DNA from: Phorcus lineatus
Lineage: Eukaryota; Mollusca; Gastropoda; Trochida; Trochidae
DNA: 64,000 nt
Direction: 5' to 3'
Assembly: GCA_921293015.1 (NCBI GenBank)
Contig: OV121083.1
Span: 33,472,908-33,536,907, forward strand
Shown: piece by piece, positions 33,801 through 54,132 of the stretch
Position numbering within the stretch: position 1 is the first letter of the stretch
Layout of the letters: every line of letters begins with the position of its first letter
Made by a program: the position numbers and the translations under genes
Notes under the pieces: generated by a model
What the model was told of the DNA's origin: nothing
Databases searched by the model: none
The model's input: only the letters and a program-made list of their open reading frames with translations

Positions 33801-34700
33801 GATAGTGGTATCAACACATTGTCTGATATTTGTTATGAAGTTGTACCCGGATTTTTAAAGGCTTCTGCCATTACAGAAATTATTTACAATCATGAATTTG
33901 ATGTTTCTCCTTCCTACATTATGAGCGCATATTTCATTATTTTAAAATCGCTCCCATGCGACTGGTTTCAATATATTTGCTCACATTCAATAATTACTAA
34001 AACTTTACAAGAAGTTTCCTTCAGCATAAATAATGATATTATACCTTCCCAAAAATTTAATGTAAAATTCTGCTATTCAATTTTCGTCTCCAAAAACTTT
34101 ATTCAACCAACTGCAACTGCATTTTGGGATAATTATGCTCTAGACATTATTTGGTCTAAAGTTTGGAAATCTGTTTTCCTTAATGACAAATCAGCTGAAC
34201 AGAGAAATCTTGATTTTAGAATTTGCCATAACATTGTTTATACCAATCAGAAAATGTACAAATATGGTAAATCTGACACTGATTTGTGTCCAGTTTGTAC
34301 AGCTGAAGCAGAAGATATGTTTCACATGTTGGTGTTTTGTGATGAATTGTATGACACCATCAATATTTTTAGGGATATTTTCACGAATATATTTCGTGAC
34401 AAAGGATACTCTTTAAACAGTTTAGTATCATGGCTTATGTTTGGATTTCAATCCACCGAAGCTCCTGAAAGCTATGATTGTATAAATATTCTTTTATCAA
34501 CCTACAGGTGGTGTGTTTATAAAAGAAGAGCTATTTCCTCATTACAGAATAAATCACTTAATCTGCTTAATTTTTTCAAAAACAGCGTAAAACATCATTT
34601 CAAATTGCTTTGGTTTCATTATTGCAAAAACAATCAATCTACGTTATTCATTTATAAATATGTAATTCCTTTAAACATCATCTCAATTGGCAACAATTAG
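30858..34700 (+). pseudogene. ORF2 of LINE copy B (endonuclease-RT), one in-frame stop
   Basis: A 1,281-codon frame with TAG at 33351-33353, the same nonsense site as copy A. It retains the EQYQHKWPG and INTLSD segments that A has lost, matching copy C, so B is closer to the ancestral length. Endonuclease residues (WNVNG, QET, GDFND, SDH) and RT motifs (FDRV with motif A, VRQGDP, HADD) are present before the stop. The C-terminal CPVC...H...C motif follows it. At the RT segment where A reads KHTFFF, B and C read Ser for the middle residue, so A carries the derived change. Confidence 0.9.
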
Positions 34701-34861
34701 GAAATTGTTCTTAAATATACACTTTGTTGAAAATATGTAAATAGCAATTCAATTTGATATTGTGTATGTCCAAGGACACATATTTTAAAACTGTATATAT
34801 CTCACATATGTCTCAACCTGTATATACTTCTGTGAATAAATCATTATGAAAGAAAAAAAAA
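34701..34861 (+). other. 3' UTR and A-tail of LINE copy B
   Basis: Matches copy A apart from two substitutions near 34720. AATAAA at 34835-34840; a terminal A9 run joins GGCGCCAGACT. Confidence 0.8.
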
Positions 34862-34960
34862 GGCGCCAGACTCAAGGACTGAGCTATTCCTTCTCACAAA
34901 TCGAGATACGGGTGTTCTGGTCCACGTATGTGGGCGTGGGTTCAAATCCCACTCCTGACA
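34862..34960 (+). pseudogene. tRNA-Leu(CAA) 3' fragment after LINE copy B
   Basis: A 99-nt 3' part with B box. Carries CAAGGACTG like the fragment after copy A, but T at loop position 38 where that fragment has C, so part of the flank has since been converted. Confidence 0.95.
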
Positions 34961-35099
34961 CATTTTGCATTTCCTTTTTATCGCCACCGGATTACATGAA
35001 ACTTAAAGCTTAAGGACTTCCAGTTTTCTAGGCAGCACTGAAGCAAAGAGCTGGGCTTCTTTTTTGTTCTTTTCATTTGTCAAAAGAGTTGCAAAAGGT

Positions 35100-35192
35100 T
35101 CCCGCGAGCCGGATTCGAACCAGCGACCTAAGGATGGCCAATTGTGATTATTCCACTACAGTCCTCCGCTCTATTAACTGAGCTATCACGGG
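35100..35192 (-). tRNA. trnY(GTA): tRNA-Tyr(GTA), degenerate, probably a pseudogene
   Basis: Both invariant D-loop guanines changed (G18A, G19A), which also hits the A box. First unit after LINE copy B. Confidence 0.75.
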
Positions 35193-35695
35193 TCTCGACT
35201 ACTCCGTTCATCTTTTGTAAATCGATACAGGACGACACTTACAGCTATATTGCTTAACGCCTGGCTGAACATCAACTTCCTTAACCCTCAAGCCTTCCCT
35301 ACAAAACTTATTTATTTTCTCTTTACTGATTACTACATCAACGTCTTCCATTTCCTAAACATTCGACAGTTGTAGACTGTCATTTTTCCTTGAAGGGCAG
35401 TTTCCTTCCCTTTCAATTGTGTTGCCAGTGTAACATCCAACACTTCAACATTAAAGATTGAAACAAACAGGGTTTGAGTCGACCTCAACCTGTACCCCAC
35501 GACCATCTCAATCAAACACAGACATACATCTGAGAAAACAGTGCTGCTTTGGCGGAGGGCTCTTGCTTCTGCGTGTGCTTCTGTGTGTCGGTTATATAAT
35601 CAAATGACATGTGTCCCAGAGCAATTGAAACGCAAGGAAAGAAAACTTTTATCTTGCCGATTGTGACACCAGTATTTAACCCTTTTGTTTCACAA

Positions 35696-35817
35696 GTCAG
35701 GATGGCCGAGCGGTCTAAGGCGCCAGCCTCAAGGATTGAGCTATTCCTTCTCACAAATCGAGATACGGGTGTTCTGGTCCACGTATGTGGGCGTGGGTTC
35801 AAATCCCACTCCTGACA
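35696..35817 (+). tRNA. trnL(CAA): tRNA-Leu(CAA), anticodon-stem A31C
   Basis: CCAGC replaces CCAGA, losing the A31-U39 pair at the base of the anticodon loop. First uninterrupted copy after LINE B. Confidence 0.88.
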
Positions 35818-35956
35818 CATTTTGCATTTCCTTTTTATCGCCACCGGATTACATGAAACTTAAAGCTTAAGGACTTCCAGTTTTCTAGGCAGCACTGAAG
35901 CAAAGAGCTGGGCTTCTTTTTTGTTCTTTTCATTTGTCAAAAGAGTTGCAAAAGGT

Positions 35957-36049
35957 TCCCGCGAGCCGGATTCGAACCAGCGACCTAAGGATGGCCAATT
36001 GTGATTATTCCACTACAGTCCTCCGCTCTACCAACTGAGCTATCACGGG
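35957..36049 (-). tRNA. trnY(GTA): tRNA-Tyr(GTA)
   Basis: Canonical, 20-nt intron. Confidence 0.97.
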
Positions 36050-36551
36050 TCTCGACTATTCCGTTCATCTTTTGTAAATCGATACAGGACGACACTTACA
36101 GCTATATTGCTTAACGCCTGGCTGAACATCAACTTCCTTAACCCTCAAGCCTTCCCTACAAAACTTATTTATTTTCTCTTTACTGATTACTACATCAACA
36201 TCTTCCATTTCCTAAACATTCGACAGTTGTAGACTGTCATTTATCCTTGAAGGCAGTTTCCTTCCCTTTCACTTGTGTTGCCAGTGTAACATCCAACACT
36301 TCAACATTAAAGATTGAAACAAACAGTGTTTGAGTCGACCTCAACCTGTACCCCACGACCATCTCAATCAAACACAGACATACATCTGAGAAAACAGTGC
36401 TGCTTTGGCGGAGGGCTCATGCTTCTGCGTGTGCTTCTGTGTGTCGGTTATATAATCAAATGACATGTGTCCCAGAGCAATTGAAACGCAAGGAAAGAAA
36501 ACTTTTATCTTGCCGATTGTGACATCAGTATTTAACCCTTTTGTTTCACAA

Positions 36552-36673
36552 GTCAGGATGGCCGAGCGGTCTAAGGCGCCAGACTCAAGGATTGAGCTAT
36601 TCCTTCTCACAAATCGAGATACGGGTGTTCTGGTCCACGTATGTGGGCGTGGGTTCAAATCCCACTCCTGACA
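36552..36673 (+). tRNA. trnL(CAA): tRNA-Leu(CAA)
   Basis: T38, intron GATACGGG. Confidence 0.97.
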
Positions 36674-36812
36674 CATTTTGCATTTCCTTTTTATCGCCAC
36701 CGGATTACATGAAACTTAAAGCTTAAGGACTTCCAGTTTTCTAGGCAGCACTGAAGCAAAGAGCTGGGCTTCTTTTTTGTTCTTTTCATTTGTCAAAAGA
36801 GTTGCAAAAGGT

Positions 36813-36905
36813 TCCCGCGAGCCGGATTCGAACCAGCGACCTAAGGATGGCCAATTGTGATTATTCCACTACAGTCCTCCGCTCTACCAACTGAGCTATC
36901 ACGGG
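36813..36905 (-). tRNA. trnY(GTA): tRNA-Tyr(GTA)
   Basis: Canonical, 20-nt intron. Confidence 0.97.
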
Positions 36906-37409
36906 TCTCGACTACTCCCGTTCATCTTTTGTAAATCGATACAGGACGACACTTACAGCTATATTGCTTAACGCCTGGCTGAACATCAACTTCCTTAACC
37001 CTTAAGCCTTCCCTACAAAACTTATTTATTTTCTCTTTACTGATTACTACATCAACGTCTTCCATTTCCTAAACATTCGACAGTTGTAGACTGTCATTTT
37101 TCCTTGAAGGGCAGTTTCCTTCCCTTTCAATTGTGTTGCCAGTGTAACATCCAACACTTCAACATTAAAGATTGAAACAAACAGTGTTTGAGTCGACCTC
37201 AACCTGTACCCCACGACCATCTCAATCAAACACAGACATACATCTGAGAAAACAGTGCTGCTTTGGCGGAGGGCTCTTGCTTCTGCGTGTGCTTCTGTGT
37301 GTCGGTTATATAATCAAATGACATGTGTCCCAGAGCAATTGAAACGCAAGGAAAGAAAACTTTTATCTTGCCGATTGTGACATCAGTATTTAACCCTTTT
37401 GTTTCACAA

Positions 37410-37531
37410 GTCAGGATGGCCGAGCGGTCTAAGGCGCCAGACTCAAGGATTGAGCTATTCCTTCTCACAAATCGAGATACGGGTGTTCTGGTCCACGTAT
37501 GTGGGCGTGGGTTCAAATCCCACTCCTGACA
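37410..37531 (+). tRNA. trnL(CAA): tRNA-Leu(CAA)
   Basis: T38, intron GATACGGG. Confidence 0.97.
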
Positions 37532-37670
37532 CATTTTGCATTTCCTTTTTATCGCCACCGGATTACATGAAACTTAAAGCTTAAGGACTTCCAGTTTTCT
37601 AGGCAGCACTGAAGCAAAGAGCTGGGCTTCTTTTTTGTTCTTTTCATTTGTCAAAAGAGTTGCAAAAGGT

Positions 37671-37763
37671 TCCCGCGAGCCGGATTCGAACCAGCGACCT
37701 AAGGATGGCCAATTGTGATTATTCCACTACAGTCCTCCGCTCTACCAACTGAGCTATCACGGG
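37671..37763 (-). tRNA. trnY(GTA): tRNA-Tyr(GTA)
   Basis: Canonical, 20-nt intron. Confidence 0.97.
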
Positions 37764-38265
37764 TCTCGACTACTCCGTTCATCTTTTGTAAATCGATACA
37801 GGACGACACTTACAGCTATATTGCTTAACGCCTGGCTGAACATCAACTTCCTTAACCCTCAAGCCTTCCCTACAAAACTTATTTATTTTCTCTTTACTGA
37901 TTACTACATCAACATCTTCCATTTCCTAAACATTCGACAGTTGTAGACTGTCATTTATCCTTGAAGGCAGTTTCCTTCCCTTTCACTTGTGTTGCCAGTG
38001 TAACATCCAACACTTCAACATTAAAGATTGAAACAAACAGTGTTTGAGTCGACCTCAACCTGTACCCCACGACCATCTCAATCAAACACAGACATACATC
38101 TGAGAAAACAGTGCTGCTTTGGCGGAGGGCTCTTGCTTCTGCGTGTGCTTCTGTGTGTCGGTTATATAATCAAATGACATGTGTCCCAGAGCAATTGAAA
38201 CGCAAGGAAAGAAAACTTTTATCTTGCCGATTGTGACATCAGTATTTAACCCTTTTGTTTCACAA

Positions 38266-38387
38266 GTCAGGATGGCCGAGCGGTCTAAGGCGCCAGACTC
38301 AAGGATTGAGCTATTCCTTCTCACAAATCGAGATACGGGTGTTCTGGTCCACGTATGTGGGCGTGGGTTCAAATCCCACTCCTGACA
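38266..38387 (+). tRNA. trnL(CAA): tRNA-Leu(CAA)
   Basis: T38, intron GATACGGG. Confidence 0.97.
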
Positions 38388-38526
38388 CATTTTGCATTTC
38401 CTTTTTATCGCCACCGGATTACATGAAACTTAAAGCTTAAGGACTTCCAGTTTTCTAGGCAGCACTGAAGCAAAGAGCTGGGCTTCTTTTTTGTTCTTTT
38501 CATTTGTCAAAAGAGTTGCAAAAGGT

Positions 38527-38619
38527 TCCCGCGAGCCGGATTCGAACTAGCGACCTAAGGATGGCCAATTGTGATTATTCCACTACAGTCCTCCGCTCTA
38601 CCAACTGAGCTATCACGGG
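38527..38619 (-). tRNA. trnY(GTA): tRNA-Tyr(GTA), T-stem G52A
   Basis: G52A weakens the T stem and changes the first base of the B box. The last unit before LINE copy C. Confidence 0.85.
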
Positions 38620-39123
38620 TCTCGACTACTCCCGTTCATCTTTTGTAAATCGATACAGGACGACACTTACAGCTATATTGCTTAACGCCTGGCTGAACAT
38701 CAACTTCCTTAACCCTTAAGCCTTCCCTACAAAACTTATTTATTTTCTCTTTACTGATTACTACATCAACGTCTTCCATTTCCTAAACATTCGACAGTTG
38801 TAGACTGTCATTTTTCCTTGAAGGGCAGTTTCCTTCCCTTTCAATTGTGTTGCCAGTGTAACATCCAACACTTCAACATTAAAGATTGAAACAAACAGTG
38901 TTTGAGTCGACCTCAACCTGTACCCCACGACCATCTCAATCAAACACAGACATACATCTGAGAAAACAGTGCTGCTTTGGCGGAGGGCTCTTGCTTCTGC
39001 GTGTGCTTCTGTGTGTCGGTTATATAATCAAATGACATGTGTCCCAGAGCAATTGAAACGCAAGGAAAGAAAACTTTTATCTTGCCGATTGTGACATCAG
39101 TATTTAACCCTTTTGTTTCACAA

Positions 39124-39157
39124 GTCAGGATGGCCGAGCGGTCTAAGGCGCCAGACT
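39124..39157 (+). pseudogene. tRNA-Leu(CAA) 5' half upstream of LINE copy C
   Basis: The first 34 nt of tRNA-Leu, ending at U33 directly before the anticodon. Contains the A box. The last 11 nt (39147-39157, GGCGCCAGACT) form the 5' target-site duplication of copy C. Confidence 0.95.
39147..39157 (+). repeat. Target-site duplication, left, LINE copy C
   Basis: GGCGCCAGACT, identical to 47800-47810. It corresponds to the 3' side of the D arm through U33 of tRNA-Leu(CAA). Confidence 0.93.
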
Positions 39158-39160
39158 ATA

Positions 39161-39174
39161 GCGCCACCTAGTGG
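39161..39174 (-). promoter_or_regulatory. CTCF-like motif at the 5' end of LINE copy C
   Basis: The minus strand reads CCACTAGGTGGCGC, matching every position of the CTCF core consensus CCASYAGRKGGCRS. It lies 4 nt inside the element and is nearly conserved in copy D. Binding is inference. Confidence 0.5.
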
Positions 39175-39376
39175 ATTGCCGAGATAAGATTTCTGTATCA
39201 GCTCTCTCTATATTTCGGATTGCTTTCGGATTTTTACTTTGATTACATCTTAATGGACGTTTAGAATCAACAATCAAGAATGTGATTCATTTTACAAGAA
39301 GGAGTTTTTGTGAATCTGCTTGTTTTGGCAGATTTTGGTGTTGATTTGTGTGTTCATATATTCGAGATCTCGATTC

Positions 39377-39387
39377 AAGATGGCGGC
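39377..39387 (+). promoter_or_regulatory. YY1-like motif over the ORF1 start, copy C
   Basis: AAGATGGCGGC spans the ORF1 ATG and matches the YY1 core. Human L1 is known to use a YY1 site to position transcription starts. Here the motif lies at the start codon, so it may equally be just a good initiation context plus codons for Met-Ala-Ala. Confidence 0.35.
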
Positions 39388-40432
39388 CATGAGGACGTAC
39401 AAGAAAGACTGCACAGTTGAAGTAAATGTCGGGAACAGAAAAACAGTCACAGGTACTTTGCTAATCCAAACTCTTTTAGGATTCGTGTCCGATGTTTTTG
39501 CGTGTGTACCGAAAAACCAAGAGTTTTTTGATGTTACTCTGCCGAACGTTGAGGAGGCACGAAAACTAGTGGAGAGTGAGATTTTTATTGGGAATAACAA
39601 ACTGCATACAAGATTGTTAGTTTCAGAGACTGTCGTTGTGTCATTCATGCACTTGCCCGCGTACATAGAAGATGGAGAAATAAAGAAATTTCTTGAAGGT
39701 AAAGGTGTTAAACTTGAAGGAGATATTAAACACCGTATGATCAAGGGGACAAACATATCAGATGGAACCAGATATGTCAGAGTTAAATTCCCAGAAGGTC
39801 TTAAATCTCTCCCATTTTCAGTTGGATTTAACACATGTGACGGATTTAAATACTTTAGGGTTATCCATAATAACCAGATCAAAGTATGCTTCCGGTGTAA
39901 CGCTACCGATCATGAAATGAAAGACTGTCCCAAGTGCTTTCAGTGCAAAGAGTACGGACACATTGCAAAAGACTGTGATAGGGTGGCCTGCGAAATATGT
40001 GGTCTTTACGGAGACAACTGTGATTGTTTTGACGATGTCACTGAAACAGACGATAAAGAATACACGAAACAATGGGACAATAATTTTCCACCGCTTTCAC
40101 GAGAACTACAATCTGAGACAATAAAACATACCAGTGATTCGCGCTCGGCTGAGCAAAAAGAAACTGACACCGACAAGTCCGATCAAGGCGAGGAGTCGGA
40201 AGATATCACGGAGTGCACGGAAGCGACTGGTCCACAATTGAACAAGTCTCTCGGGTGGAATGTTATAAAACGCAAATGGAGTCGGAAACGACAGAACACA
40301 AAGATATCAGAGACTGTTTTGCGCGAAAATGAACTCAAAAATAAAATCAGAGAAACAAGAAAAGATGAACTTAAAAAGAAAAAAGAAGTTATAGTGAACG
40401 AGAAACGGGACATCGTAGAAATTGGAGAATAA
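39380..40432 (+). CDS. ORF1 protein of LINE copy C (CCHC RNA-binding-like)
   Basis: A 350-aa open frame. The ATG at 39380 (MAAMRTYKK) is chosen because copies A, B and D start at the equivalent place; the frame is open further upstream but has no homologous extension. Same architecture as copy A: RRM-like N-terminal half with DGTRYVRVKFP, knuckle 1 C-x2-C-x4-H-x4-C, knuckle 2 of the same form with a shorter linker (CPKC), then a third C-x2-C-x6-C-x-C cluster, NFPPL, acidic linker, GWNVIKRKW and a Lys-rich tail. No disabling change seen. The stop overlaps ORF2 as TAATG. Confidence 0.92.
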   Translation: MAAMRTYKKDCTVEVNVGNRKTVTGTLLIQTLLGFVSDVFACVPKNQEFFDVTLPNVEEARKLVESEIFIGNNKLHTRLLVSETVVVSFMHLPAYIEDGEIKKFLEGKGVKLEGDIKHRMIKGTNISDGTRYVRVKFPEGLKSLPFSVGFNTCDGFKYFRVIHNNQIKVCFRCNATDHEMKDCPKCFQCKEYGHIAKDCDRVACEICGLYGDNCDCFDDVTETDDKEYTKQWDNNFPPLSRELQSETIKHTSDSRSAEQKETDTDKSDQGEESEDITECTEATGPQLNKSLGWNVIKRKWSRKRQNTKISETVLRENELKNKIRETRKDELKKKKEVIVNEKRDIVEIGE

Positions 40433-40434
40433 TG
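40430..40434 (+). promoter_or_regulatory. TAATG stop-restart overlap, copy C
   Basis: The ORF1 TAA and ORF2 ATG share one A, as in copies A and B despite the divergence between subfamilies. Confidence 0.7.
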
Positions 40435-40779
40435 GACACTTTAACCATATTAACTTTTGTTATGCTTGTATGTTCTTGGAACGTTAATGGACTGAGAGAC
40501 ATTCATAAAATGGAAAGTGTTTTCCAAAAAGTTCTAGATTGTCATGCTGACATGATATTTTTACAAGAGACATTCTGGGACAATAATTTCATCGAGACGT
40601 ATAAACATAAATGGCCGGGTAAGATCTTTTATAATAATTGTCCTGTTCAAAATAGAAAAGGTGTAGCTATATTATTTTCTCCCTCTTTTCCATACCAGCC
40701 ATATTTTGACATGTGTGACGGGTATGGTCGTTTACTACGAGTCAATTTTAGCAGTGATGAACAAATATATATGTATCAT

Positions 40780-40816
40780 CCCAACTTGGGAAAAATAGAA
40801 AAATTTCCAAGTTGGG
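40780..40816. repeat. Left terminal hairpin of the nested element
   Basis: Arms CCCAACTTGG (40780-40789) and CCAAGTTGGG (40807-40816), a perfect 10-bp stem around a 17-bp A/T loop. A CGATCTTGAGATGGGACGG segment follows, related to the right-end palindromes. Confidence 0.85.
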
Positions 40817-41458
40817 ACGTCCGATCTTGAGATGGGACGGCAGATACTTTAACATGTTTATAATATCCTTATTCTAATGTTGAATTTAGTAATAACATGA
40901 TAACATGTATCATTTAGATAAGTGCTTCAAGGACATCGAAAGATATTTTGATTTTATGTTAATTTTCATGACTTATTGGCTATATATATCTCTCATCGCA
41001 AAGGAGTCTTTCATCATAGCCCAATACGATTTCAAAAGTAATTCTTACACAAAGTCTTATAAATTATTTCATTATATTCTTAATTATTATTAATTATGAA
41101 AGCATGTTAAGCAAATAAAAAAAGGATTTATATTCAATTATACACTCAAAACCTACTCTAAGCGAATACCAAGAATGCTAATCTAATGCCTTGTAATCAG
41201 TTCAATTTCTGACACATAAACCGTTCCGTTAAGCAAGATTCCAATGTACTTATATATTGTGTTTGATAGTCGAATCTAAAAGTGTATGTATGTATGTAAC
41301 ATAATTCACAAACACTAACCTGTAAGTGGTGTTCCCTCAATGCTTATAAGATGTCCAGTAAATAAATCCAGTTATGTCTCCTCATATTTCCGATCGAACC
41401 TGATCTGATCAGTGTCGTGATGCAAATGGCAAACATACCTGCTTGGTAGTTCAGAGAT

Positions 41459-41494
41459 GGGTGTGGGTTGGGTGGGAAGGGGGGGGGGGGGGGG
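41459..41494 (+). other. G-quadruplex-forming tract in the nested element
   Basis: Four GGG runs separated by TGT, TT and T, then AA and a run of 16 G. This fits the G3+N1-7 quadruplex pattern on the plus strand and stands out in an AT-rich element. The G16 length may not be exact. Confidence 0.7.
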
Positions 41495-41499
41495 TGTCC

Positions 41500-44030
41500 G
41501 AAAGAAGGGATTTTGGTAAACATCCGGTTCGGTTATGACACTAATACCTGTGTGTCACCTTCCAATTAGTGACAAGAATGGGTACCAATTGCACATGAGC
41601 ATGCTTGTAACACTACAAAGGTACACGCCGAGCGTTTGTTGTTTTAGTCAATGTTCATCATTCATTTTTATCAAGGCATTTGCCCCTATCGGCAATATCT
41701 CTGATAGGTGGAAGCAGACGTGATCAAACCCTAACCAAAAACAACAACAAATATAATGTTTAGTGTTATTGTATTGTTATTCGATGAAAGTTGTTTTGCC
41801 ACACTAAATATATTCAAAATATGTTTTTCATTAACAGAAAGATTATCATGTCACGTAACCAAAATGAAATCTAACATCATCCATTGATTATTTATGGGGA
41901 AATAGCACGCTTTTCAATAGATTTTTTAAAACAAGATAACTTAGTTTCCAAGATTTGCGAAAGAAGATTATGGTTTCAACAAATTTTTTTCATTTCTATA
42001 AAAAGAAATTAGATTTGGAGGCAAGCTGGAAGCTTATATTTATATTAATGCCGCTCCAATAAAAATCATATTTTGAAACCATCCAACATGCAACACAAAG
42101 TCAAACAAATACAATGTACAGTTGCAGCACAATACGTTAAGATATTCAATATTGCAAAGGCGATTTCTTCATGCTAATTTAGAAATGCAATATTTCAACT
42201 CATTTCTTATCAATATTACAAGAAGATTTTAAACGGATCACTAGATTTTTTGACACAAACCCTTGTTGAGAAAAATTATTCTACTGTTTTCTACATAGCC
42301 CGAGGTAACATATGATTTTGATCAGTATTAAAAGGTTGCTTTTTCATATGTACAAGCGTCTATCTAGGCTTGTTAAAAGCGTTGAAATGAGAGAATTGTT
42401 GTGTGTTGTTACTGCTAATACGTTAATCAACTGATCCGTACATAAGTCAAATAAGATGAGTAGGTGAGAGGAAAGAATTACATTTCAGTGTAATATTGTT
42501 ATTTTACAGCTGAAAGTTTACTTAACTAATCGTTTTGTTATCTTTTAATTAGCTACTTAACATGTCCCCCCGAAAAAAGGCATTAGGTTTGTAAATACAC
42601 ATCAATGAAGTTTATTGATATACTAAGACTTATCGAGTTATTTTGTGCTGACATACATGTACTAGTGTAATATCTTCAGAGGACTAAGTGATTCATATTG
42701 TTATTGCTTACACAAATCTGATATAGAAACTGTCATTGCTTATTGTAAAATATTCGATATTTCATTGTATGAAAAAATGCAATATGTGTAATCATATAAT
42801 GGTTAGTAAGTATATTTCTATGATTTAAATGGTATTCTATTTCAATAAAACATGTGTTACACAAAATTCAGAATTTATATACAAAAAGAAAAAAGGATTG
42901 GCAAACAGGCAGCAAATGCTTATATAAATTCTTTTCCTGAACCAAACATAAAACTATTTAGATATCAAGTACATTGGTGGAAATATACATTTGCAATTAT
43001 TCTTACTAAACTCAAATTCATATTATGCTTTGTCTACCTTACATTTTTTGTACAAATTGTAGGAAAGAGCTTTAAAAAATGATAAATATATATTATTAGG
43101 AGTTCGTTAACACTCTGTGACAAAGATTTGTCGCCGTTAAGATAGATTTTAGTATATTGTTATGAGTTACGAGGGAATATTCAAACCCAAAGTTTGGCAC
43201 TATTTGAAAATATCTAAAATGTTGGGGAACCAGACTTCGATAATAGGAACTTTTAATTATTTTTATATTTGATACAATCAACCAAGTCGCCAATTTGATG
43301 AACAAGATAGTACTCTGTTAAAACAACATGGGGTTTTGGTGTCTCCATATGTTGTTTTAGCCTAACAGTTCCTACGGTGGGCAAATTGGTGTCCAATCAT
43401 CCGTTCTCTGTCACGCCAAGCTGACACATTAACAAATTCAGTCTAGTCAGTGCTGCATTGTAACGATGGAGAGTACCTTAATTTCTGTTTATACATATAT
43501 AATTTTAATATATATTTTGCATGGATTATTCATTTCTCTGTATCAGGTACGTTTTTTAATTATATATTTTTGAAAAAGCAATTTATCACTAGTATTGTAA
43601 AACTTGGATCTGTATTAGAATAACTTCATATATGTGATTGTTAATAGTTTATACCACCTTTTTGTAAAGAAACTAAGATACAAAGATGTCTCTGTGATGT
43701 CAGCTGTTCGATCTACGCATGTATTGTTCGTTTGAAAAATGCTGAAAACTACTATCTAAATATAAATCTATACATTGATCTGATTTTGTTATGTCTCTTA
43801 ACAAATGTGATTCAATCAGTAATCAAATGTGACTTTATATAAATGTTTGAGGTGTGTTGAATCGTTCGTACTCGATAACATATGAAACCGAGTGAAAAAG
43901 TGAAGTAAATGAACATCAAATCAAATTTTCTTCTTAGGTGTGAAAAGAATATAACAAAACTATCTAAAAACATGTTTTACTAACACAAATTATTATAAAA
44001 TATGAATATTATTAACATGTTTAAGTATCC
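41500..44030. other. AT-rich interior of the nested element, no recognised gene
   Basis: About 2.5 kb with only short unsupported ORFs on either strand (for example 42852-43082, 76 codons, Lys/Ile/Phe-rich). I see no tRNA, no tandem array and no homology to the LINEs. Confidence 0.6.
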
Positions 44031-44033
44031 TCC

Positions 44034-44101
44034 GTCCCATCTCAAGATGGGACGTCCCAACTTGGAATCCCAAGTTGGGACGCGTCCCATCTTAAGATGG
44101 G
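44034..44101. repeat. Right terminal hairpin cluster of the nested element
   Basis: Three adjacent palindromes: 44034-44053 (9-bp arms GTCCCATCT/AGATGGGAC), 44054-44081 (12-bp arms GTCCCAACTTGG/CCAAGTTGGGAC with a 4-base loop), and 44086-44101 (CCCATCTTAAGATGGG, perfect). The first two correspond to the left-end motifs; the third has no left counterpart. Confidence 0.88.
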
Positions 44102-47100
44102 GCGGATCCGCAGTTGGGATGATACATATACATGTATAAATGTTTATGCACCAAATGTCGCCACAGAGCGAATTATTTTTTATGATGATTTTAAAACATA
44201 TTTGTGTGGGCAACATATTATTGCCCCAGGCGACTACAATGAATTGTTAGATGTTTATCTTGACAAAAATGTAAATGTTAAATATTATAATTTGAACAGC
44301 AGTAATGCTCTGTGTAAAGTTATGGCTGATCATAATATGTGTGATATTTGGAGATACAGAAATCCTGACAGAAGAGAATTCACTCGTAAACAAATCGTAA
44401 ATGGAGTGTGCAAGCAAAGTCGTATTGACTTCACCCTAATTTTAAAATCTTTAATTCCGTATGCAACACATGCCTATATACAATATATACCTTTAAGCGA
44501 TCACTCCATTAATTTCGTCAAATTTGATTTTACTAAAGTTGAACGTGGACCTGGCATGTGGGTCATCAACAATGAAATTCTGTCAGATTCTGTATTTTCA
44601 AATACCATCAAGGATTTGATTAATGAAAACTTATCATGCCCTCTGTATTCATCTGAACCACTGTTATGGTGGGATAATTTAAAATACAAAATGAAAAAGT
44701 GTAGTATTTATTTCTCATGTAAAAAAAAAAAAGAAGAGAAAGCAAAGCATTTTGATTTACAACGTAGGTTAAGATTAGAATATGATAAACTTTCTAAAAA
44801 CCCATCGCGAGATATTACTTTTATACAGAATTTAGAAAAAGAATTACAAATTTTTGAAAAGAGTAAATGTGATGGTGCTATTTTAAGGTCTAAAGCACAA
44901 TGGGCTTTAGAATCAGATAAGAATACCTCATTCTTTTTAAATCTGGAAAAAACTAGGCAAGAATCAAATTGCATAAAAGAGCTATTAACTGATAAAGGTG
45001 TTACAAAGAAAACTGAAGACATATTAGATCATGCTTTTAATTTTTATTCTAGCTTGTATAAAGCCGAAGATGTTAATATCAATAATCAAAATGATTTATT
45101 GTATTTAATCAAAGATGTCCTCTCAGAGGAAGATAAGACTGTGCTTGATAATAATGTCAATGATGACGAGCTAACATCAGCTCTAAACGCAATGAAGCGT
45201 CATAAAAGTCCAGGCAATGATGGACTAACTGTTGAATTTTATGTACATTTTTGGAATGTTTTAAAACCTATATTTATGCATATTGTTAACAATATTTTCA
45301 GTGAAAAGCAATTATCACGTTCAATGAAAAAAGGAGTAATCAGCTTATTTTATAAAAAACGAGGAGACAAAAGAGACATTAAAAATTTTAGGCCTATATC
45401 ACTTTTAAATGTTGATTGTAAACTAATTTCCAAAGTTCTCGCTTCACGGTTGAAACATGTTCTTGAAACTGTCATCTCCTCTGAACAAACTTGCGGCATA
45501 CCCGGACGTGATATTGCTGACAATATTCATTCCTTAAGAGATGTAATTGATTTGTCTAATGACTTAGAGGAAGCTTATGTAATCTCTATCGATCAAGAGA
45601 AGGCTTTCGATCGTGTTTCCCAACCATTTATTATAAAAGTTCTTGAAAAAATGAATTTTGGTGAAAACTTTATTTCATGGATTAGAATACTATATTCAGG
45701 CTTAGAAAGCAGTGTTAAAATCAACGGACATCTAACGCCATACTTCCCTGTTACTAGGTCAGTCCGCCAGGGTGACCCACTTAGCAGTTTATTGTTTGTC
45801 ATTGTCAGCCAATCACTCAATCAGCTTATAAAAGCTAACACCGATATTAAACCAATTGTTATTGATGCTCACCATAAGTCTTTATTGTATCAACATGCTG
45901 ATGATGCCACTGTCACTGTTTGTGACAAGCAATCTGTAATCGCCACTTTTACATCCTTTGATTATTATTGCTCAGCTGCAGGAGCTAAGATTAATTTAAC
46001 AAAGTCTGAAGTGTTAGCTTTGGGGAGATTAAATCACAATAGTATTTCTAAATTTGATCTTCCAATAACAGTCAAATGTGACTGTCTAAAAATTTTGGGA
46101 ATTCATTTGGGGACCGATAAAGCAGCGTGTGAAAACAAAAATTGGAAATGTAAATTAAATAAAATTAAATCCTTGCTTGGTCTGTGGTCGCAAAGACAGC
46201 TAACACTTCAGGGCAAATCAATTGTTGTAAATACTTTTATGCTATCAAAATTGTGGTATAGCGTTTATGTTTTACCTGTTCCAGATTGGTTTATTAAGGA
46301 CCTAGAAACATGTATTTTCAATTTTTTATGGTCTGGTAAAACAGCACTTGTAAAGCGCACGACAACAATAGGGCACTTCATACAAGGTGGTTTATCTCTC
46401 CCTAGTTTAAAATTCAAAGTTCATTCATTTCGCTTAAAATTGGTAAAGAAACTTTTTGATTGCAATTACACATCATTATGGAAATATTCAGCTATGTTAT
46501 TTTTCCAAAAATACCTTAATATGGGACTCCGGGGAAATATTTTCAATATTGTTTACAATGAGGGTGATCTTAAGGAGATAAACCCCTTTTATGCTGAAGT
46601 TCTGCGTGCGTGGGATGAAATCACGTGCTCTCAACGAGAGCTCGTGACTAATCCCGAGCAAATCATGCATCAACCACTGTTCCATAATCCACACGTGCGT
46701 TTCAATGAGAAGTTGTTGTGCTTTAAGTTTTTCATTGACAGTGGCATTTGCACACTGTCTGATATTTGTTATGAGGTTGTGCCAGGATTTTAAAGGTCTC
46801 AGCCATTGTAGAAATGGTGCGTAACTGTCATATTGATGTACCTGTTTCACACATTCGATGTGCATATTTTATTATTGTCAAATCTCTACCAAGAGAATGG
46901 TTCCAACACATTTGTTCATATCCTACCATAAGTAAACCACTTCAACAAGATGTATGTATTGTTTCAGACAATGGTAATATTATATCCAATCAGCTGAATG
47001 TTAAATTTTGCTATGCATATTTTGTTGAAAAAAACTTTGTAAAAGCAACCTCAATCACCTTTTGGGAACAATATATATTAGACATTAAGTGGCCTCAAGT

Positions 47101-47668
47101 TTGGAAATCAGTATTTCATAATGACAAATCTTCCCAGCAAAAGGATCTTGATTTTAGAATATGTCATAATATTGTTTTTACTAATGAAAAAATGTATAAA
47201 TATGGCAAATCTGACACAAATTTGTGTCCAGTGTGTCAGGATACTATTGAAGATATGTTTCATATGTTTGTATTCTGTGATGAGCTCTATGAAACTATAA
47301 TGTTATTCAAAAATATATTTACAAATATATTTCATGATAGGGGTTACTCTCTCGATGATTTAATTTCATGGTTATTGTTTGGGATTCACTCTTCTGTGAC
47401 GAGTGAATACAATGATTGTTTAAATATATTTTTAGCAATCTTCCGAATGTGCGTTTACAAAAGACGATCAATTTCATTACTACAAAACAAAAAACTCAAA
47501 TTAGACACATTTTTCAAATACTGTATTAAACACCATTTTAAACTACTCTGGTTCCATTATCGCTGTAGAAATCAAACTTCAGTTTTCATTAACAGATATG
47601 TTTTGCCCCTAAATATCACCACTGTAGGTGATAATGATGAGATTGTTCTAAACTATCCATTTTACTAG

Positions 47669-47799
47669 GTATATTCTGATTAATTCTTAGATAAGATTAT
47701 GTATGTCCATGGACGCAACTTTTAAATTGTATATATAGTCCACTCATTTTAATATGTACATACTTCTGTGAATAAAACATTGTCAAAGAAAAAAAAAAA
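47669..47799 (+). other. 3' UTR and A-tail of LINE copy C
   Basis: AATAAA at 47771-47776 and a terminal A run joining the target duplication. The segment TATGTCCATGGACGC corresponds to TATGTCCAAGGACAC in A/B, so a small palindrome is kept in an otherwise diverged 3' UTR. Confidence 0.8.
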
Positions 47800-47810
47800 G
47801 GCGCCAGACT
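47800..47810 (+). repeat. Target-site duplication, right, LINE copy C
   Basis: GGCGCCAGACT directly after the A-tail. The preceding AA of the target may be hidden in the tail, so the duplication could be up to 13 bp. Confidence 0.93.
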
Positions 47811-47898
47811 CAAGGATTGAGCTATTCCTTCTCACAAATCGAGATACGGGTGTTCTGGTCCACGTATGTGGGCGTGGGTTCAAATCCCACTCCTGACA
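47800..47898 (+). pseudogene. tRNA-Leu(CAA) 3' fragment after LINE copy C
   Basis: A 99-nt 3' part, including the 11-bp target duplication, with B box and the normal CAAGGATTG intron start. Confidence 0.95.
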
Positions 47899-48037
47899 CA
47901 TTTTGCATTTCCTTTTTATCGCCACCGGATTACATGAAACTTAAAGCTTAAGGACTTCCAGTTTTCTAGGCAGCACTGAAGCAAAGAGCTGGGCTTCTTT
48001 TTTGTTCTTTTCATTTGTCAAAAGAGTTGCAAAAGGT

Positions 48038-48129
48038 TCCCGCGAGCCGGATTCGAACCAGCGACCTAAGGATGGCCATTGTAATTATTCCACTACAGTC
48101 CTCCGCTCTACCAACTGAGCTATCAGGGG
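48038..48129 (-). tRNA. trnY(GTA): tRNA-Tyr(GTA), acceptor G4C
   Basis: G4C gives a C-C mismatch in the acceptor stem; 19-nt intron with an extra change. First unit after LINE copy C. Confidence 0.8.
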
Positions 48130-48633
48130 TCTCGACTACTCCCGTTCATCTTTTGTAAATCGATACAGGACGACACTTACAGCTATATTGCTTAACGCCT
48201 GGCTGAACATCAACTTCCTTAACCCTTAAGCCTTCCCTACAAAACTTATTTATTTTCTCTTTACTGATTACTACATCAACGTCTTCCATTTCCTAAACAT
48301 TCGACAGTTGTAGATTGTCATTTTTCCTTGAAGGGCAGTTTCCTTCCCTTTCAATTGTGTTGCCAGTGTAACATCCAACACTTCAACATTAAAGATTGAA
48401 ACAAACAGTGTTTGAGTCGACCTCAACCTGTACCCCACGACCATCTCAATCAAACACAGACATACATCTGAGAAAACAGTGCTGCTTTGGCGGAGGGCTC
48501 ATGCTTCTGCGTGTGCTTCTGTGTGTCGGTTATATAATCAAATGACATGTGTCCCAGAGCAATTGAAACGCAAGGAAAGAAAACTTTTATCTTGCCGATT
48601 GTGACATCAGTATTTAACCCTTTTGTTTCACAA

Positions 48634-48755
48634 GTCAGGATGGCCGAGCGGTCTAAGGCGCCAGACTCAAGGATTGAGCTATTCATTCTCACAAATCGAG
48701 ATAAGGGTGTTCTGGTCCACGTATGTAGGCGTGGGTTCAAATCCCACTCCTGACA
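48634..48755 (+). tRNA. trnL(CAA): tRNA-Leu(CAA), variable-arm mismatch
   Basis: GTATGTAGGC replaces GTATGTGGGC, breaking one pair of the long variable arm. Intron has ATTCATTC and GATAAGGG. Confidence 0.9.
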
Positions 48756-48894
48756 CATTTTGCATTTCCTTTTTATCGCCACCGGATTACATGAAACTTA
48801 AAGCTTAAGGACTTCCAGTTTTCTAGGCAGCACTGAAGCAAAGAGCTGGGCTTCTTTTTTGTTCTTTTCATTTGTCAAAAGAGTTGCAAAAGGT

Positions 48895-48987
48895 TCCCGC
48901 GAGCCGGATTCGAACCAGCGACCTAAGGATGGCCAATTGTGATTATTCCACTACAGTCCTCCGCTCTACCAACTGAGCTATCACGGG
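48895..48987 (-). tRNA. trnY(GTA): tRNA-Tyr(GTA)
   Basis: Canonical, 20-nt intron. Confidence 0.97.
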
Positions 48988-49491
48988 TCTCGACTACTCC
49001 CGTTCATCTTTTGTAAATCGATACAGGACGACACTTACAGCTATATTGCTTAACGCCTGGCTGAACATCAACTTCCTTAACCCTTAAGCCTTCCCTACAA
49101 AACTTATTTATTTTCTCTTTACTGATTACTACATCAACGCCTTCCATTTCCTAAACATTCGACAGTTGTAGACTGTCATTTTTCCTTGAAGGGCAGTTTC
49201 CTTCCCTTTCAATTGTGTTGCCAGTGTAACATCCAACACTTCAACATTAAAGATTGAAACAAACAGTGTTTGAGTCGACCTTAACCTGTACCCCACGACC
49301 ATCTCAATCAAACACAGACATACATCTGAGAAAACAGTGCTGCTTTGGCGGAGGGCTCATGCTTCTGCGTGTGCTTCTGTGTGTCGGTTATATAATCAAA
49401 TGACATGTGTCCCAGAGCAATTGAAACGCAAGGAAAGAAAACTTTTATCTTGCCGATTGTGACATCAGTATTTAACCCTTTTGTTTCACAA

Positions 49492-49613
49492 GTCAGGATG
49501 GCCGAGCGGTCTAAGGCGCCAGACTCAAGGATTGAGCTATTCCTTCTCACAAATCGAGATAAGGGTGTTCTGGTCCACGTATGTAGGCGTGGGTTCAAAT
49601 CCCACTCCTGACA
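49492..49613 (+). tRNA. trnL(CAA): tRNA-Leu(CAA), variable-arm mismatch
   Basis: Same GTAGGC variable-arm change as the gene at 48634; intron GATAAGGG. Confidence 0.9.
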
Positions 49614-49752
49614 CATTTTGCATTTCCTTTTTATCGCCACCGGATTACATGAAACTTAAAGCTTAAGGACTTCCAGTTTTCTAGGCAGCACTGAAGCAAA
49701 GAGCTGGGCTTCTTTTTTGTTCTTTTCATTTGTCAAAAGAGTTGCAAAAGGT

Positions 49753-49845
49753 TCCCGCGAGCCGGATTCGAACCAGCGACCTAAGGATGGCCAATTGTGA
49801 TTATTCCACTACAGTCCTCCGCTCTACCAACTGAGCTATCACGGG
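49753..49845 (-). tRNA. trnY(GTA): tRNA-Tyr(GTA)
   Basis: Canonical, 20-nt intron. Confidence 0.97.
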
Positions 49846-50349
49846 TCTCGACTACTCCCGTTCATCTTTTGTAAATCGATACAGGACGACACTTACAGCT
49901 ATATTGCTTAACGCCTGGCTGAACATCAACTTCCTTAACCCTTAAGCCTTCCCTACAAAACTTATTTATTTTCTCTTTACTGATTACTACATCAACGTCT
50001 TCCATTTCCTAAACATTCGACAGTTGTAGACTGTCATTTTTCCTTGAAGGGCAGTTTCCTTCCCTTTCAATTGTGTTGCCAGTGTAACATCCAACACTTC
50101 AACATTAAAGATTGAAACAAACAGTGTTTGAGTCGACCTTAACCTGTACCCCACGACCATCTCAATCAAACACAGACATACATCTGAGAAAACAGTGCTG
50201 CTTTGGCGGAGGGCTCATGCTTCTGCGTGTGCTTCTGTGTGTCGGTTATATAATCAAATGACATGTGTCCCAGAGCAATTGAAACGCAAGGAAAGAAAAC
50301 TTTTATCTTGCCGATTGTGACATCAGTATTTAACCCTTTTGTTTCACAA

Positions 50350-50471
50350 GTCAGGATGGCCGAGCGGTCTAAGGCGCCAGACTCAAGGATTGAGCTATTC
50401 CTTCTCACAAATCGAGATACGGGTGTTCTGGTCCACGTATGTGGGCGTGGGTTCAAATCCCACTCCTGACA
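50350..50471 (+). tRNA. trnL(CAA): tRNA-Leu(CAA)
   Basis: T38, intron GATACGGG. Confidence 0.97.
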
Positions 50472-50610
50472 CATTTTGCATTTCCTTTTTATCGCCACCG
50501 GATTACATGAAACTTAAAGCTTAAGGACTTCCAGTTTTCTAGGCAGCACTGAAGCAAAGAGCTGGGCTTCTTTTTTGTTCTTTTCATTTGTCAAAAGAGT
50601 TGCAAAAGGT

Positions 50611-50702
50611 TCCCGCGAGCCGGATTCGAACCAGCGACCTAAGGATGGCCATTGTGATTATTCCACTACAGTCCTCCGCTCTACCAACTGAGCTATCACG
50701 GG
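50611..50702 (-). tRNA. trnY(GTA): tRNA-Tyr(GTA)
   Basis: Canonical exons, 19-nt intron. Confidence 0.97.
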
Positions 50703-51206
50703 TCTCGACTACTCCCGTTCATCTTTTGTAAATCGATACAGGACGACACTTACAGCTATATTGCTTAACGCCTGGCTGAACATCAACTTCCTTAACCCTT
50801 AAGCCTTCCCTACAAAACTTATTTATTTTCTCTTTACTGATTACTACATCAACGTCTTCCATTTCCTAAACATTCGACAGTTGTAGATTGTCATTTTTCC
50901 TTGAAGGGCAGTTTCCTTCCCTTTCAATTGTGTTGCCAGTGTAACATCCAACACTTCAACATTAAAGATTGAAACAAACAGTGTTTGAGTCGACCTCAAC
51001 CTGTACCCCACGACCATCTCAATCAAACACAGACATACATCTGAGAAAACAGTGCTGCTTTGGCGGAGGGCTCATGCTTCTGCGTGTGCTTCTGTGTGTC
51101 GGTTATATAATCAAATGACATGTGTCCCAGAGCAATTGAAACGCAAGGAAAGAAAACTTTTATCTTGCCGATTGTGACATCAGTATTTAACCCTTTTGTT
51201 TCACAA

Positions 51207-51328
51207 GTCAGGATGGCCGAGCGGTCTAAGGCGCCAGACTCAAGGATTGAGCTATTCCTTCTCACAAATCGAGATAAGGGTGTTCTGGTCCACGTATGTG
51301 GGCGTGGGTTCAAATCCCACTCCTGACA
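51207..51328 (+). tRNA. trnL(CAA): tRNA-Leu(CAA)
   Basis: T38, intron GATAAGGG. Confidence 0.97.
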
Positions 51329-51467
51329 CATTTTGCATTTCCTTTTTATCGCCACCGGATTACATGAAACTTAAAGCTTAAGGACTTCCAGTTTTCTAGG
51401 CAGCACTGAAGCAAAGAGCTGGGCTTCTTTTTTGTTCTTTTCATTTGTCAAAAGAGTTGCAAAAGGT

Positions 51468-51560
51468 TCCCGCGAGCCGGATTCGAACCAGCGACCTAAG
51501 GATGGCCAATTGTGATTATTCCACTACAGTCCTCCGCTCTACCAACTGAGCTATCACGGG
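51468..51560 (-). tRNA. trnY(GTA): tRNA-Tyr(GTA)
   Basis: Canonical, 20-nt intron. Confidence 0.97.
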
Positions 51561-52064
51561 TCTCGACTACTCCCGTTCATCTTTTGTAAATCGATACAGG
51601 ACGACACTTACAGCTATATTGCTTAACGCCTGGCTGAACATCAACTTCCTTAACCCTTAAGCCTTCCCTACAAAACTTATTTATTTTCTCTTTACTGATT
51701 ACTACATCAACGTCTTCCATTTCCTAAACATTCGACAGTTGTACATTGTCATTTTTCCTTGAAGGGCAGTTTCCTTCCCTTTCAATTGTGTTGCCAGTGT
51801 AACATCCAACACTTCAACATTAAAGATTGAAACAAACAGTGTTTGAGTCGACCTCAACCTGTACCCCACGACCATCTCAATCAAACACAGACATACATCT
51901 GAGAAAACAGTGCTGCTTTGGCGGAGGGCTCATGCTTCTGCGTGTGCTTCTGTGTGTCGGTTATATAATCAAATGACATGTGTCCCAGAGCAATTGAAAC
52001 GCAAGGAAAGAAAACTTTTATCTTGCCGATTGTGACATCAGTATTTAACCCTTTTGTTTCACAA

Positions 52065-52186
52065 GTCAGGATGGCCGAGCGGTCTAAGGCGCCAGACTCA
52101 AGGATTGAGCTATTCCTTCTCACAAATCGAGATAAGGGTGTTCTGGTCCACGTATGTGGGCGTGGGTTCAAATCCCACTCCTGACA
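52065..52186 (+). tRNA. trnL(CAA): tRNA-Leu(CAA)
   Basis: T38, intron GATAAGGG. Confidence 0.97.
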
Positions 52187-52324
52187 CATTTTGCATTTCC
52201 TTTTTATCGCCACCGGATTACATGAAACTTAAAGCTTAAGGACTTCCAGTTTTCTAGGCAGCACTGAAGCAAAGAGCTGGGCTTCTTTTTTGTTCTTTTC
52301 ATTGTCAAAAGAGTTGTAAAAGGT

Positions 52325-52417
52325 TCCCGCGAGCCGGATTCGAACCAGCGACCTAAGGATGGCCAATTGTGATTATTCCACTACAGTCCTCCGCTCTATC
52401 AACTGAGCTATCACGGG
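52325..52417 (-). tRNA. trnY(GTA): tRNA-Tyr(GTA), G19A
   Basis: G19A removes an invariant D-loop guanine (G19-C56 pair and A-box end); 20-nt intron. Confidence 0.85.
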
Positions 52418-52921
52418 TCTCGTCTACTCCCGTTCATCTTTTGTAAATCGATACAGGACGACACTTACAGCTATATTGCTTAACGCCTGGCTGAACATCA
52501 ACTTCCTTAACCCTTAAGCCTTCCCTACAAAACTTATTTATTTTCTCTTTACTGATTACTACATCAACGTCTTCCATTTCCTAAACATTCGACAGTTGTA
52601 GATTGTCATTTTTCCTTGAAGGGCAGTTTCCTTCCCTTTCAATTGTGTTGCCAGTGTAACATCCAACACTTCAACATTAAAGATTGAAACAAACAGTGTT
52701 TGAGTCGACCTCAACCTGTACCCCACGACCATCTCAATCAAACACAGACATACATCTGAGAAAACAGTACTGCTTTGGCGGAGGGCTCATGCTTCTGCGT
52801 GTGCTTCTGTGTGTCGGTTATATAATCAAATGACATGTGTCCCAGAGCAATTGAAACGCAAGAAAAGAAAACTTTTATCCTACCGATTGTGACATCAGTA
52901 TTTAACCCTTTTGTTTCACAA

Positions 52922-53043
52922 GTCAGGATGGCCGAGCGGTCTAAGGCGCCAGACTCAAGGATTGAGCTATTCCTTCTCACAAATCGAGATAAGGGTGTTC
53001 TGGTCCACGTATGTGGGCGTGGGTTCAAATCCCACTCCTGACA
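52922..53043 (+). tRNA. trnL(CAA): tRNA-Leu(CAA)
   Basis: T38, intron GATAAGGG. The leader carries AAGAAAAG and ATCCTACCG changes. Confidence 0.97.
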
Positions 53044-53182
53044 CATTTTGCATTTCCTTTTTATCGCCACCGGATTACATGAAACTTAAAGCTTAAGGAC
53101 TTCCAGTTTTCTAGGCAGCACTGAAGCAAAGAGCTGGGCTTCTTTTTTGTTCTTTTCATTTGTCAAAAGAGTTGCAAAAGGT

Positions 53183-53275
53183 TCCCGCGAGCCGGATTCG
53201 AACCAGCGACCTAAGGATGGCCAATTGTGATTATTCCACTACAGTCCTCCGCTCTACCAACTGAGCTATCACGGG
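53183..53275 (-). tRNA. trnY(GTA): tRNA-Tyr(GTA)
   Basis: Canonical, 20-nt intron. Confidence 0.97.
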
Positions 53276-53779
53276 TCTCGACTACTCCCGTTCATCTTTT
53301 GTAAATCGATACAGGACGACACTTACAGCTATATTGCTTAACGCCTGGCTGAACATCAACTTCCTTAACCCTTAAGCCTTCCCTACAAAACTTATTTATT
53401 TTCTCTTTACTGATTACTACATCAACGTCTTCCATTTCCTAAACATTCGACAGCTGTAGACTGTCATTTATCCTTGAAGGGCAGTTTCCTTCCCTTTCAA
53501 TTGTGTTGCCAGTGTAACATCCAACACTTCAACATTAAAGATTGAAACAAACAGTGTTTGAGTCGACCTCAACCTGTACCCCACGACCATCTCAATCAAA
53601 CACAGACATACATCTGAGAAAACAGTGCTGCTTTGGCGGAGGGCTCATGCTTCTGCGTGTGCTTCTGTGTGTCGGTTATATAATCAAATGACATGTGTCC
53701 CAGAGCAATTGAAACGCAAGGAAAGAAAACTTTTATCTTGCCGATTGTGACATCAGTATTTAACCCTTTTGTTTCACAA

Positions 53780-53901
53780 GTCAGGATGGCCGAGCGGTCT
53801 AAGGCGCCAGACTCAAGGATTGAGCTATTCCTTCTCACAAATCGAGATAAGGGTGTTCTGGTCCACGTATGTGGGCGTGGGTTCAAATCCCACTCCTGAC
53901 A
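53780..53901 (+). tRNA. trnL(CAA): tRNA-Leu(CAA)
   Basis: T38, intron GATAAGGG; downstream CATTTTATTTTT. Confidence 0.97.
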
Positions 53902-54040
53902 CATTTTGCATTTTATTTTTATCGCCACCGGATTACATGAAACTTAAAGCTTAAGGACTTCCAGTTTTCTAGGCAGCACTGAAGCAAAGAGCTGGGCTTC
54001 TTTTTTGTTCTTTTCATTTGTCAAAAGAGTTGCAAAAGGT

Positions 54041-54132
54041 TCCCGCGAGCCGGATTCGAACCAGCGACCTAAGGATGGCCATTGTGATTATTCCACTACA
54101 GTCCTCCGCTCTACCAACTGAGCTATCACGGG
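54041..54132 (-). tRNA. trnY(GTA): tRNA-Tyr(GTA)
   Basis: Canonical exons, 19-nt intron. Confidence 0.97.

Follow-up and report, generated by a model that had tools for sequence, protein, structure and literature searches.

The window analysed here (C5:33472908-33536907, on contig OV121083.1 of the 958-Mb Phorcus lineatus assembly; 64,000 nt) carries four copies, A to D, of a long interspersed nuclear element (LINE) lying in tRNA-Leu(CAA) genes. With a probability of about 0.88, this element is read as a LINE with two open reading frames (ORFs), where ORF1 encodes RRM-like units and zinc knuckles and ORF2 an APE-type endonuclease and a reverse transcriptase (RT), which would use tRNA genes in general as its target. 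The 11-mer GGCGCCAGACT adjoining the A-tails in the window has 868 matches in the genome (vs 40 for the reversed control), mostly other than intact Leu genes, and was dropped as a diagnostic marker by itself; the genome was thus searched with a degenerate 23-mer lying wholly within the LINE 3' end, to avoid selecting on the target. This pattern occurs at 52 places, vs none for its reversed control, and at every one of them, all flanks having been read, the 3' flank enters a tRNA gene in sense orientation, with no end outside tRNA genes or in spacer.

These ends are distributed over 19 isoacceptor types, namely Leu-CAA (6), Thr-AGU (5), Glu-CUC, initiator tRNA-Met (iMet), Thr-UGU and Pro-AGG (4 each), Ala-AGC, Arg-ACG and Gln-UUG (3 each), Arg-UCG, Trp-CCA, Phe-GAA, His-GUG, Thr-CGU and Ile-UAU (2 each), and Glu-UUC, Gly-GCC, Val-UAC and Ala-UGC (1 each). 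The 19 types represent 17 chromosomal regions, with Thr-CGU, Thr-UGU and Ile-UAU mixed at C37:13.34-13.48 Mb. The chance of 19 tRNA matches is approximately 10^-41.6, and that of 17 approximately 10^-37, if all 82,836 first-look tRNA candidates are assumed to be 75-bp tRNAs, equal to 0.65% of the genome. The original prediction of a specificity for tRNA-Leu(CAA), made from the window alone, does not hold, as only six of the 52 ends lie in this gene, while 46 lie at the homologous position of 18 other types. The genome tabulation of 3' flanks which it had proposed gives flanks that are non-random and site-specific, as expected, together with a majority of copies ending outside tRNA-Leu. Judged from these flanks, site specificity is correct and the target class is wider than tRNA-Leu(CAA).

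The junction is also nearly constant in position. When the tRNA is numbered backwards from its anticodon, 48 of the 52 ends have position 22 or 23 as the first flank base following the A-tail, just after A21. Position 22 accounts for 30 ends and position 23 for 14, the latter comprising the Leu and Arg ends (11), where position 22 is read as an A fused with the tail, and three Pro ends; four more (L049, L085, L086 and L093; script output 2, 15, 13 and 19) lie at 22 once G-interrupted A-tails are allowed, while L071 has its first flank base at 21. The tails range from 3 to 23 A, apart from that of L049, which is broken by G. Both halves of the gene could be read in 12 types; in these, the junction lies 20–23 nt from the gene start, and 30–31 nt from the B box in the ten types without an intron, vs 68 and 78 nt in the two with one; it stays within one base of A21 despite these varying distances. 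On tRNA numbering, the junction accordingly follows A21 directly, where the A box ends on its 3' side. The anticodon-arm site originally proposed for the insertion is right only in part: the 3' junction, at 21/22, is at the border of the D-loop and the 3' strand of the D-stem, just past the A box, while the duplication extends into the anticodon stem.

When 39 copies were clustered by ORF2 DNA at ≥98.5% nucleotide identity, each of the eight clusters spanned two to seven tRNA types, the largest comprising nine copies in seven types. The nearest sibling of copy C (L053) is in an initiator tRNA-Met gene, and near-identical siblings of copies A and B are also found in other tRNA types. Because such near-identical clusters span several types, the breadth of targets belongs to single subfamilies. 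A subfamily with 59% identity in ORF2 protein has both of its read ends in tRNA genes, Lys (L050, flank base 24) and Asn (L051, flank base 22), which are two types beyond the 19. The insertion position is on this comparison kept across deep divergence within the lineage.

The 5' side was analysed in 29 loci and window copy C, and 22 of these have a recognisable 5' end (21 loci, including window copy D, which is L038, and copy C), the 5' motif being absent from the other eight loci. The commonest outcome is a duplication of 8–11 bp starting from position 22/23 and spanning positions ~22–31, which is present in 13 of the 22 copies (in Trp, Arg, Ala, Thr, Glu, iMet and Leu genes). These 13 represent 10 distinct junctions, as L025 and L026 (Ala-AGC) have a common 5' junction, and so do L028, L029 and L030 (Thr-AGU). 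The 5' side is, on these alignments, variable and the 3' side near-exact, and a variable 5' side is usual for LINEs. The 5' ends begin with (GA)GCGCCACCTRGTG in each ORF2 cluster examined (at 39161 and 61520 in the window, and e.g. in L018, L023, L025 and L050), beyond which the 5' untranslated region is divergent among clusters. We take GCGCCACCTRGTG to match the CTCF core consensus, and (GA)GCGCCACCTRGTG is perhaps a promoter or insulator element.

In the window itself, much of the original description was borne out. All four copies lie in tRNA-Leu(CAA) genes in one orientation, which is sense, and the A-tail directly precedes GGCGCCAGACT at the visible 3' ends of A, B and C; the 3' end of copy D, beyond the window (L014, matched by position), also adjoins GGCGCCAGACT. 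The predicted perfect 11-bp duplication of GGCGCCAGACT around copy C was likewise found (Table 1), and copy D starts at 61518–61520, following the tRNA head. Copies A and B are 99.6% identical across 5,261 bp and have a common 5' junction in spacer (element from 569 and 29663, respectively), where the tRNA 5' half is missing, as well as a common ORF2 stop (residues 830/832); they are thus array duplicates of one insertion. A/B, C and D are read as three independent insertion events, which agrees with the at least three insertions at one position claimed before.

The following mechanism is proposed. The ORF2 protein would nick the bottom strand opposite 21/22, and the A-tailed RNA would be reverse-transcribed from this nick by target-primed reverse transcription, after which the top strand would usually be cut ~9–11 nt downstream, close to where the 5' strand of the anticodon stem ends. 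The site would be found, less certainly, by reading on the DNA the conserved 3' end of the RNA polymerase III (Pol III) A box, with the consensus GG(T)TA|G, and direct reading is the recognition step that we slightly favour. Pairing of the tail to the primer fails to explain the precision, because position 22 is G in most types and the primer would end in C. In its fullest form, the proposal would have the element's own endonuclease or ORF2 protein recognise the A-box 3' end, which is universal, and so make every tRNA gene a target at 21/22, a property kept while ORF2 diverged to 59% identity; the odds of this form are about even. Because tRNA genes are repeated in tandem arrays (174 exact intact Leu sites vs 6 Leu LINE ends), the damage would be buffered.

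Several observations weigh against, or limit, the case for a pan-tRNA target cut at one position. The register is not absolute, because three of the 52 ends lie upstream within the A box (His, ~10 and ~15; Glu-CUC, ~16). Five of the 22 copies with a 5' end have long duplications that take in the greater part of the tRNA (Thr-AGU L022, Val, two iMet and Lys), and four of the 22 have no duplication by exact match, although one of these (Ile, L020) shows on visual inspection a long duplication that contains a mismatch. The labels of the 19 isoacceptor types were assigned from anticodon-arm motifs and not by a tRNA caller, and a few interrupted genes (e.g. L093 and L096) have base changes in the anticodon arm. 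DNA searches with two 3' ends (best 40 of 58 and best 40 of 66 candidates) gave twelve ends missing the 23-mer, two of which were read, L055 in Trp and the first end of L047 in Ile, the latter by eye where the script gave no label; the tally omits the other ten diverged ends, and more may exist. Six of these ten are within ~60 kb of a tallied copy (C5:17530400, C12:36732234, C13:9287482, C37:13281578, C37:13349472 and C37:17115001), the other four being elsewhere (C15:38446293, C15:38451091, C25:7855501 and C29:34577170), and the match at C5:17535860 stops at query base 140, without a 3' end. The Leu units of the window also contain Tyr(GUA)-like genes whose A box fits the target pattern, and none of the four LINE copies (three independent events) lies in them. 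Lastly, among the foreign relatives whose 5' end can be read, the closest, L097 (51% in ORF2), has no tRNA there, an observation that decides little because its 3' end is absent.

The most serious rival leaves the pan-tRNA target unchanged and supposes that TFIIIC/TFIIIB, or the open A-box bubble, recruits the ORF1 or ORF2 protein, with an endonuclease of little sequence specificity. Such tethering would suit a target class defined by its internal promoter, and the three outlier ends are still within the A box. By estimate, a genome of 958 Mb should contain a great many copies of a short motif such as GGTTAG alone, so that recognition would have to extend beyond this hexamer. A precedent exists in the ORF1 protein of TRE5-A, which is reported to interact with TFIIIB subunits, with targeting that needs the B box (PMC5911963). 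However, the exact junction tracks A21, and neither the gene start nor the distance to the B box (30–31 vs 68–78 nt), and the amoeba elements land in certain ranges beyond the gene boundaries (e.g. 40–54 bp upstream or 40–150 bp downstream). Because the register is fixed, direct reading of the DNA is preferred over tethering, which is given clearly less than even odds.

Passive spread, in which a single insertion was copied through array expansion, unequal exchange or gene conversion, is true inside arrays, as seen from the common 5' truncation and ORF2 stop of copies A and B and from the common 5' junctions of L025/L026 and L028–L030, but it cannot carry copies between unrelated tRNA types, where the duplications are type-specific, the tails differ and 17 regions are involved, and is very improbable as a general account. 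Even less credible is a lineage specific for tRNA-Leu(CAA) and directed by GGCGCCAGACT: this gene holds all window copies, yet the flanks of the ends in other types differ (GAGCGCTCG, GCGTGCTGG, GGATTTCGG and others) and copies A/B and C have their near-identical siblings in other types, so that the tally of 52 flanks and the mixed-type clusters rule it out. Random insertion followed by survival in redundant tRNA arrays alone, to which the highly redundant Leu array (174 exact intact sites) would be favourable, is just as hard to believe, as selection cannot place 48 of 52 all-sense junctions within two nucleotide positions, nor leave 0 of 52 ends in spacer when spacer is most of each Leu unit.

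The encoded proteins place the element among known LINEs. ORF1 contains zf-CCHC zinc knuckles (Pfam), which score above the cut-off in copies C and D and just below it in copy A (20.5 bits vs the cut-off of 20.8), and its N-terminus was modelled as two RRM-like units (structure model and fold search), for which the N-terminal part alone was used, as the overall confidence of the model is low (overall pLDDT, the predicted local distance difference test score, 59). ORF2 of copy A contains the Pfam domains Exo_endo_phos (APE-type endonuclease) and RVT_1 (RT), together with, at its C-terminus, a weak zinc-binding match that falls short of the Pfam cut-off. The best PDB match of ORF2 is human L1 ORF2p (E 4.2e-80, residues 12–875); R2 proteins reach 1e-13 at best, along a shorter segment. 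The endonuclease domain scores highest with LTX (70.8 bits), a PDB chain presumably carrying the Tx1L hairpin, followed by LR1 (61.3) and the L1 endonuclease (at most 58.5). An APE-type endonuclease and a non-long-terminal-repeat (non-LTR) RT in a single ORF2, A-tails and 8–11-bp duplications are all features of L1-group LINEs, and the ORF1 zinc knuckles and target-specific insertion are Tx1-type traits. Zinc knuckles, RRM-like folds and site specificity suit the Tx1 clade, to which Mutsu, Keno and Dewa all belong, and are not unique to it. From these domains and scores, the element is probably a Tx1-like member of the L1 group. Among the best 54 of 8,527 candidates scored in the genome search with ORF2, 18 have an open ORF2 frame of 1,286–1,303 codons with a stop-free matched part. 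The extra-long open frames by L032, L033 and L048 were set aside, the adjacent sequence being runs of N, taken as gaps.

Non-LTR retrotransposons specific for tRNA genes have been described before, namely NeSL-1_TV in tRNA-Pro and the planarian LIN15_SM and LIN25_SM in tRNA-Arg and tRNA-Glu (PMC4640811), but these use one tRNA type each and belong to clades with a restriction-like endonuclease, whereas the present element has an APE domain and at least 19 types, with two to seven per cluster. Mutsu (5S rRNA), Keno (U2 snRNA) and Dewa (tRNA-Leu spacer) are target-specific LINEs (PMC3706591), Keno with an APE-type endonuclease (PMC4640811), which likewise have targets in multicopy small-RNA genes, though each has a single target gene, and Dewa is in spacer and not in the tRNA gene as here. 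The dictyostelid non-LTR elements TRE5, TRE3, NLTR-A and NLTR-B likewise have tRNA genes as a whole for their target (PMC5911963), but they insert upstream or downstream at a limited range of distances, so that the gene stays intact, while the present element splits the gene at one position, all 52 ends being inside. Dada DNA transposons do insert within tRNA and snRNA genes, Dada-tL often with differing sequence on one side (PMC3706591); unlike the present LINE, they have a DDE transposase, 6–7-bp duplications and one main target gene per family. R1 and R2 of the 28S ribosomal DNA (rDNA) arrays are LINEs that similarly use a specific site in a gene present in many redundant copies (PMC3706591), with one gene as target instead of a whole gene class. 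The excerpt of PMC8869645 names tRNA genes among non-LTR targets, without detail, and those of PMC10886601 and PMC10294476 contain no LINE inside many tRNA types. Nor was such a LINE found in the titles, abstract openings and passages covered by the literature search, with Repbase Reports, bioRxiv and most subscription papers outside its scope.

The present lineage would be both class-general and nucleotide-exact; to our knowledge, site-specific LINEs use one gene sequence, and class-level tRNA LINEs land beside genes. It may thus make it possible to test directly how the nuclease of a retrotransposon accepts approximately 20 sequences yet cuts one structural position. As the A box is present in every eukaryote, the target would exist in any host, and tRNA arrays would be a retrotransposon home as rDNA is for R1 and R2, which bears on the turnover of tRNA arrays.

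The window is part of a tandem array (Table 1), in which the intact Leu genes are spaced by 857 or 858 bp in 37 of 44 intervals. There are 174 intact exact Leu sites in the genome, all on the plus strand, and all on C5 among the 100 places listed. In the 4 kb scanned with Rfam, four Leu genes and four minus-strand tRNAs reading as Tyr(GUA) with an intron were found, and the window contains 40 exact A-box matches of the Tyr(GUA)-like gene. ARAGORN (bacterial code) called no tRNA in the window, a miss probably caused by the introns.

Table 1. Coordinates of the host array, tRNA genes and LINE copies in the window (position 1 is its first base).
Feature	Positions	Strand	Details
Tandem array of ~857-bp units, each with an intron-bearing tRNA-Leu(CAA) gene	1..64000	+	45 intact, 4 LINE-interrupted
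LINE copy A, lacking its 5' part and fused to spacer	569..5758	+	A-tail 5750-5758; ORF1 628-1764; ORF2 from 1764, stop at residue 830
tRNA-Leu(CAA) 3' part from position 23, adjoining the A-tail of copy A	5759..5857	+	
LINE copy B, 5' junction as in A	29663..34861	+	A-tail 34853-34861; ORF1 from 29722, stop at residue 58; ORF2 from 30858, stop at residue 832
tRNA-Leu(CAA) 3' part after copy B	34862..34960	+	
tRNA-Leu(CAA) 5' part before copy C	39124..39157	+	Ends with first duplication copy GGCGCCAGACT (39147-39157)
LINE copy C	39158..47799	+	5' end with ATAGCGCCACCTAGTGG; A-tail 47789-47799; ORF1 39380-40432; ORF2 broken by ~3.3-kb insert
DNA-transposon-like insert in ORF2 of copy C	40772..44126		Inverted terminal repeats TGTATCATCCCAACTTGG / CAGTTGGGATGATACA
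tRNA-Leu(CAA) 3' part after copy C	47800..47898	+	Starts with second duplication copy (47800-47810)
Rfam RF00005 Leu matches	48634-48755, 49492-49613, 50350-50471, 51207-51328	+	4 kb scanned
Second tRNA of unit, reading as Tyr(GUA) with intron	48895..48987	-	One example
tRNA-Leu(CAA) head upstream of copy D	61493..61517	+	GTCAGGATGGCCGAGCGGTCTAAGG
LINE copy D, cut by window end	61518..64000	+	ORF1 to 62832; ORF2 from 62822

Relatives of ORF2 number 703, and the best among the 120 listed have 59% identity over the full length or 77% over 70% of it. Named relatives occur in molluscs and sea cucumbers; no relative was found in viral contigs, and eight loci are in prokaryote assemblies. Five of these eight (L097–L101) are LINE contigs in bacterial assemblies (a Flavobacteriaceae metagenome-assembled genome and Bathymodiolus symbionts), which are probably animal contamination. 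No tRNA was seen in these five loci, of which L097 is without a 3' end, and L098–L101 are only 27–30% identical to the element.

Among the dispersed copies of GGCGCCAGACT, the one that was read, in L003, belongs to the terminal inverted repeats of a short element of ~290 bp (about 1490–1780). Several of the listed GGCGCCAGACT sites are paired on opposite strands, ~170–263 bp apart. In the genome search with the tRNA family, in which the best 63 of 82,836 candidates were scored, a minus-strand array of high-scoring tRNA genes was observed at C32:44.64-44.67 Mb, with spacings of 273, 361 and 634 bp or sums thereof, and further tRNA types of this genome may be in tandem arrays as well.

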